NCBI GenBank assembly: GCA_021828865.1
Contig: JAJZCW010000001.1
Span: 19,851-83,850 of the forward strand
Reading direction: 5' to 3'
Length of the DNA stretch: 64,000 nt
From: Bacillota bacterium
GTDB lineage: Bacteria; Bacillota; Bacilli; Alicyclobacillales; SLC66
Below the pieces are notes generated by a model. The model saw only the letters and a list, made by a program, of their open reading frames with translations, had not been told where the DNA came from and ran no database searches. The position numbers were made by a program, and so were the translations under genes. Positions 24,206 to 25,952 of this stretch are shown here, one piece after another. Position 1 is the first letter of the stretch; the number at the start of each line of letters is the position of its first letter.

Positions 24206-24270
24206 ACTTCATTTCACACTCCTTTTTCCAAGGCTATTGCGCGGTAAAAAAAGTCCACCTCCCGATCAAC

Positions 24271-24299
24271 ATTATAAAATGAAATCGCATGCTTTCGCA
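24271..24299 (-). promoter_or_regulatory. Possible promoter of qcrB-qcrC
   Basis: The minus strand carries a perfect TATAAT at 24271-24276 with a weak -35 (TGCGAA) 17 bases upstream. It lies in the intergenic space (24206-24398) where qcrA would be expected, so qcrBC may be transcribed independently of the ypiF-like gene. Confidence 0.35.
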
Positions 24300-24398
24300 G
24301 CATAACAAATCCCCTGCCATGGGATAAGTGCTACTAAACTGCATCTACTATCATTTTTAAAGATAATACTGAATTAACTCAAGATGAGGATGTGACGA

Positions 24399-25192: not shown

Positions 25193-25675
25193 TTAATACA
25201 AATCTGCTCCCATCAGTGAGCTTTGTTCCATATATAAACCAGGTAGATCAAGCGCAGGGTCGTCCTCTAGACGGTTCATTCCCAAATCCTCTAAAGACTG
25301 ATGCAACCCTTGGCGAAGTGCTTTTTCCGCTTCCAACGACCCGCCTTCGATCTCTTGAACTGCCCTTCTTGCCCCCCTCATCGCATGTCGCGCGATATCT
25401 GAAACGTCGTATCCTGCGCTGGCCAATCCATGGATGATGCCCCTCATGGATTCAGTGATGGAGAAAAAATGAAAAGGAATGGTACTTTCTGATACTCCTA
25501 CCATGGCGTGATATGCTGAGTTTTCCGCCATCAATTCACGATCGTTTGGCGAGTGGTGTTGGTTGAATAGCATAGTTAGTTCGTGCGTCACCACAGAACT
25601 AATAAACGTTTCTGAAGTTGGATTCTCCATTTCAATACCGGTTTTGATTCCATCTCTTAGTTCACTAAAAATCAC
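25193..25675 (-). CDS. Unknown 160-aa protein under c-di-AMP riboswitch control
   Basis: Family not recognised. The soluble, acidic, mainly helical protein has no signal peptide or membrane segment. The N-terminal half contains THELTMLFNQHH and ENSAYHAMVGVSES; the middle has HFFSITESMRGIIHGLASAGYD and RHAMRGARRAVQEIEGG; the C-terminal third is rich in Glu, Leu and Met. The start is GTG at 25673-25675, eight bases after GAGGGGAG. A longer in-frame extension would begin inside the riboswitch terminator hairpin and is rejected. It is a monocistronic unit: promoter, c-di-AMP riboswitch, terminator, gene, terminator. Known members of this regulon handle K+ and osmolytes or wall hydrolysis, so an osmotic or cell wall role is a reasonable guess only. 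Confidence 0.8.
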   Translation of the reverse strand: MIFSELRDGIKTGIEMENPTSETFISSVVTHELTMLFNQHHSPNDRELMAENSAYHAMVGVSESTIPFHFFSITESMRGIIHGLASAGYDVSDIARHAMRGARRAVQEIEGGSLEAEKALRQGLHQSLEDLGMNRLEDDPALDLPGLYMEQSSLMGADLY

Positions 25676-25703
25676 TATAATCGCTCCCCTCGTTATTTTT
25701 GAA

Positions 25704-25740
25704 AGAATAAAAAACAAAGCCGCGACAGCAATAGTCACGG
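25704..25740 (-). terminator. Expression-platform terminator of the c-di-AMP riboswitch
   Basis: On the minus strand CCGTGAC (25740-25734) pairs with GTCGCGG (25726-25720) around a seven-base loop, then CTTTGTTTTTT. It lies ~50 bases after the aptamer and ~30 bases before the GTG start, as expected for a riboswitch that stops transcription when ligand is bound. Confidence 0.85.
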
Positions 25741-25791
25741 AATTCGCGAAGGGGAAATTATGTCTTTGGTTTCATTATAGTTTTCTCCTTT

Positions 25792-25899
25792 CGCTTACGA
25801 GGTTAGCTGACGGGTTTGGGTTGAGAAATACCCTACCGAAGTTAACGGATTCACCCCTAGAAAATGGTTCCCCCGCTTCCGACTCACCGGAATTAAGCG
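25792..25899 (-). promoter_or_regulatory. Cyclic di-AMP riboswitch (ydaO/yuaA type) aptamer
   Basis: The minus-strand sequence matches the conserved ydaO aptamer: CGCTTAAT at the 5' end, GAAGCGGGGGAACCA, GGGGTGAATCC, AGGGTA, CAACCCAAACCCG, then CAGCTAACCTCGTAAGCG. The outer stem CGCTTA (25899-25894) pairs with TAAGCG (25797-25792). This class binds c-di-AMP and usually turns expression off through a downstream terminator, which is present. A ribosome-binding-like GAAAGGAGA and a five-codon frame follow the aptamer and are probably part of the switch region rather than a gene. Confidence 0.95.
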
Positions 25900-25923
25900 T
25901 GTTTTATTTGAATTTTCATTTTA

Positions 25924-25952
25924 ATTGTAGCAATGAAAGGGGACATTGACAA
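25924..25952 (-). promoter_or_regulatory. Sigma-A promoter of the riboswitch transcript
   Basis: On the minus strand TTGTCA (25952-25947) and TACAAT (25929-25924) are separated by exactly 17 bases. Transcription would start ~18 bases before the aptamer, just after the ypiB stop codon. Confidence 0.75.

Follow-up and report, generated by a model that had tools for sequence, protein, structure and literature searches.

The 64-kb window examined here (the whole stretch of DNA that was analysed, 64,000 nucleotides) encodes on its minus strand a c-di-AMP riboswitch of the ydaO/yuaA class followed by a gene for a 160-residue protein of an unannotated, soluble, all-alpha family, and comparison with relatives makes it near certain that the riboswitch controls the gene. 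The riboswitch class is already known; the target protein family appears to be undescribed, no earlier description having been found in the literature searched (the older RF00379 target lists, Block 2010 and Nelson 2013, lay outside its scope). On balance we slightly favour the interpretation that the cassette combines a c-di-AMP OFF switch with a cytosolic helical adaptor that adjusts ion, osmotic or envelope function.

All parts of the cassette (promoter-like site, aptamer, hairpins and gene) lie on the minus strand. The first-pass annotation had recognised the ydaO-type aptamer by its conserved segments, and a covariance-model search bears this out: RF00379 matches positions 25909-25778 over the whole model (1-134) with the conserved core intact, at 104.4 bits (E 9e-24) vs a gathering cut-off of 38 bits, and is the sole Rfam match in the window. 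A terminator-like hairpin located by scanning (25740-25720; CCGTGAC/GTCGCGG, then a T-rich tail) is the putative expression platform and corresponds to the terminator previously placed 3' of the aptamer. The gene itself (25675-25193) begins with GTG at 25675, preceded by AGGGGAG, and is followed by a second terminator-like hairpin (25150-25129; 9-bp stem and T-run), given which it is a single-gene unit; this hairpin had also been proposed, but its position falls just outside the range originally annotated. Terminator-like hairpins number four vs a mean of 1.1 in shuffled sequences. The promoter-like site (25952-25924; TTGTCA-17-TACAAT, extended -10) matches 10 of 12 consensus positions, but chance alone would also produce such sites (four seen in the consensus scan vs a mean of 2.8 in shuffles). 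The full-length aptamer, the conserved core and the terminator-like hairpin before the gene are features in common with the B. subtilis kimA (ydaO) and ktrAB leaders.

Whole-genome searches recovered 30 homologous genes in 29 genomes. The window's own family accounts for 14 of these genomes and a second family of the same order for 13; the remaining two belong to another order, and one of them has two copies. When 399 genomes sampled across the phylum were searched, the window's own copy was the only one recovered; the family is thus narrow in distribution. Among the carriers of the cassette, Sulfoacidibacillus thermotolerans Y002 and Ferroacidibacillus organovorans SLC66 are known by name, the naming having used an alignment of, and covering, the window's own family. 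The two main groups of proteins are about 20% identical and clearly homologous (profile-profile E 1.6e-14), and the best conserved residues are R78-G79 in helix 4, together with further glycines. In close pairs dN is much smaller than dS (e.g. 0.05 vs 1.02 and 0.089 vs 0.67; dS is saturated for some pairs, the window's own included), which indicates that the gene is under purifying selection. One further hit (L048, genome G008) was dropped, the matched frame reading like an aldehyde dehydrogenase. The genome with two copies (G147) carries diverged genes, L062 and L065, each with its own RF00379 aptamer, and L065 bears a C-terminal extension.

The pairing of riboswitch and gene recurs widely among these relatives, as the annotation of the window had led us to look for. 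RF00379 is directly upstream of 26 of the 30 homologs, in two orders and about ten neighbourhoods: 14/14 in the window's family, 9/13 in the second family and 3/3 in the other order. In the window's family, Ferroacidibacillus-type genomes excepted, the gene resides in the trpA-tyrA-ypiB-ypiF-qcr region; in the other groups, the flanks (about 1.5 kb on each side) have only the target in common. Genomes of this order contain up to 20 RF00379 elements (unusually many, 20 and 18, in G056 and G046), and chance cannot give such an association because these elements, with 500 bases downstream of each, cover about 0.1% of a genome, an order-of-magnitude estimate. The four homologs lacking RF00379 (L037, L039, L042 and L063, in three genomes of genus g17 and one of g19) show no Rfam match in their vicinity even when the threshold is relaxed to E 1, a point against the favoured interpretation; their genomes have RF00379 elsewhere. 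At distances of 0.20-0.38, the aptamers of the homologs, including those of the other order, are closer to that of the window than are the three further RF00379 aptamers in its own genome (0.42-0.44), and distances between aptamers correlate with those between the proteins (Mantel r 0.68, p 2e-4). Because the RNAs track the proteins in this way and the homologs' aptamers are the nearer ones, the comparison indicates that aptamer and gene have been passed on together as a unit.

By analogy with its riboswitch class, the aptamer would bind c-di-AMP and act with the OFF polarity described for RF00379 (PMC5575661, PMC7288161). At high c-di-AMP, as in potassium-replete cells, the aptamer would close helix P1 and transcription would halt at the 25740-25720 terminator; at low c-di-AMP, the 3' strand of P1 would be free for downstream pairing and the gene would be transcribed. 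A hairpin of the same kind as that in the window recurs at the matching place in most relatives, and a simple scan detected it in 18 of 25 leaders, a count that is accordingly low, since the scan overlooked some hairpins visible by eye. A downstream pairing partner for the 3' strand of P1 is present in the window and in relatives; in 14 of the latter it overlaps the 5' strand of the terminator by 1-10 nt, as expected of a putative antiterminator. In the window itself, the partner belongs to a hairpin of its own immediately ahead of the terminator, with no overlap with the terminator stem, and folding of the leader places both hairpins there at once, which makes the proposed switching step less evident in this leader. 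At one locus (L018 in G004, 1312-1908), the start codon of the target is one base past the aptamer match; because no terminator intervenes between aptamer and gene, control there would have to be translational, possibly a shift from transcriptional control.

The other three RF00379 units of the same genome precede genes for standard RF00379 targets, namely an NlpC/P60 protein, a LysM-3D protein and an OpuC-type ABC-ATPase with CBS domains. They serve as a control from within the same genome: riboswitch class and cell are the same, but these targets belong to recognised protein families and their aptamers are further from that of the window. Reviews list potassium and amino acid transporters and osmotic, wall and sporulation genes as the targets of the class (PMC5575661, PMC7288161), whereas the target in the window is a cytosolic protein of no known family. 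A further arrangement was observed at three loci (L079 in G045, L080 in G034 and L081 in G057), where two tandem RF00379 aptamers surround a conserved frame of about 62 codons and are followed by a universal stress protein (Usp, PF00582) and another conserved small frame; the two small frames of L081 match no Pfam family. Binding of c-di-AMP at the Usp domain has been reported for KdpD of S. aureus (PMC7288161).

Neither the protein of the window nor its relatives match a family in Pfam, NCBIfam or PDB sequences, and no transporter or wall-hydrolase family is found among the matches of the window protein in these collections; such weak matches as occur (Pfam, NCBIfam, PHROGs, PADLOC, PDB) are scattered, each in one or two members. 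Thus both halves of the first-pass proposal, an RF00379 aptamer and a target outside the known wall-hydrolase and transporter families, stand. The product had been described as soluble, and it is indeed acidic (pI 4.8) and lacks both an evident signal peptide and any hydrophobic stretch of transmembrane strength. In AlphaFold models, the window protein (pLDDT 84.8) and a distant relative (pLDDT 90.4) adopt the same seven-helix bundle; the two input alignments differ, yet have three sequences in common. Foldseek searches of viral and PDB structures found no natural structural relative and no match at E 0.001 or better, the only resemblance, below significance, being to designed helical-repeat proteins. 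Of these, the de novo designs DHR4 (5cwb) and O43_dn18 (6vfi) share stacked alpha-hairpins with the relative modelled at pLDDT 90.4 (TM 0.66-0.69 over the query), but these artificial proteins are 12-13% identical to it and the matches fall short of significance (E 0.014-0.016); the likeness is one of shape rather than of family. Internal repeats, considered on account of similar motifs in helices 2, 4 and 6, found no support, hhalign of the three thirds giving at most 20% probability; nor did membership of the HEAT/ARM-like solenoids, for which hhalign and Foldseek gave no detectable sequence repeats and no significant natural match.

Because sensor and gene have stayed paired across about ten genomic settings, it is very likely that the protein is part of the potassium, osmotic and cell-wall response of the cell; the earlier suggestion that the target is a member of the c-di-AMP response is upheld by this inherited association. 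What the protein does there is a weaker deduction, drawn from predicted shape: a short alpha-hairpin scaffold in which no catalytic motif is recognised would suit a binding adaptor. The cassette would then comprise a terminating c-di-AMP riboswitch and one gene, whose product, a cytosolic alpha-hairpin protein of small size and acidic character, tunes ion, osmotic or envelope function alongside the OpuC-type uptake of osmolytes and the wall-active proteins that answer to the same signal. More tentatively, the family may be a new direct effector or feedback regulator of c-di-AMP signalling, a helical adaptor confined to low-c-di-AMP conditions that would control its binding partner, be it an ion transporter, the cyclase or the wall machinery.

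Among the alternatives, the one that fares best, although we regard it as unlikely, places the protein inside the c-di-AMP circuit, where it would bind the cyclase, the phosphodiesterase or c-di-AMP and feed back on the level of the messenger. A cytosolic single-gene unit under its own riboswitch fits such a feedback element, but curated family searches reveal no similarity to known c-di-AMP binding domains, and the family is missing from most RF00379-bearing genomes of the order. A role in spore formation or germination, timed by the riboswitch, recalls reports of RF00379 beside sporulation genes (PMC5575661, PMC7288161); with no sporulation gene adjoining in the neighbourhoods examined and no match to a sporulation family, it is distinctly improbable.

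The neighbourhood of the cassette bears on whether the 160-codon frame is a mere passenger of a riboswitch that serves the downstream genes (that at the ypiF position, and qcr). The gene had been described as inserted between ypiB and a ypiF-like gene; the ypiB product matches UPF0302 and IDEAL, but the designation 'ypiF-like' derives from position, the sole Pfam match of that gene being Creatininase (PF02633, E 4e-10). In Bacillus, qcrA is located between ypiF and the cytochrome b gene; in the window, the corresponding interval (24206-24398), which separates the cytochrome b gene from that at the ypiF position, has no room for this Rieske gene. The order ypiB, cassette, ypiF position, qcr is retained in most of the window's family, as a passenger would allow, but the second terminator 3' of the gene, the presence of the cassette at about nine other sites where these neighbours are missing and the low dN relative to dS render this explanation very improbable. 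Least probable of all is a BstA-like phage-defence protein, to which weak matches point (PHROG BstA, E 0.002, residues 37-93; PADLOC BstA, E 0.037), but these involve a single family member, a significant family-wide profile match is absent, and a search with the single protein found no relative in collections of viral contigs, phages or plasmids.

Most of the explained targets of the c-di-AMP riboswitch are transporters or wall enzymes. That such a riboswitch is dedicated to, and inherited with, an unannotated family of cytosolic proteins points to an unexplored part of the c-di-AMP response, and the cassette supplies a defined gene with which that response may be tested.
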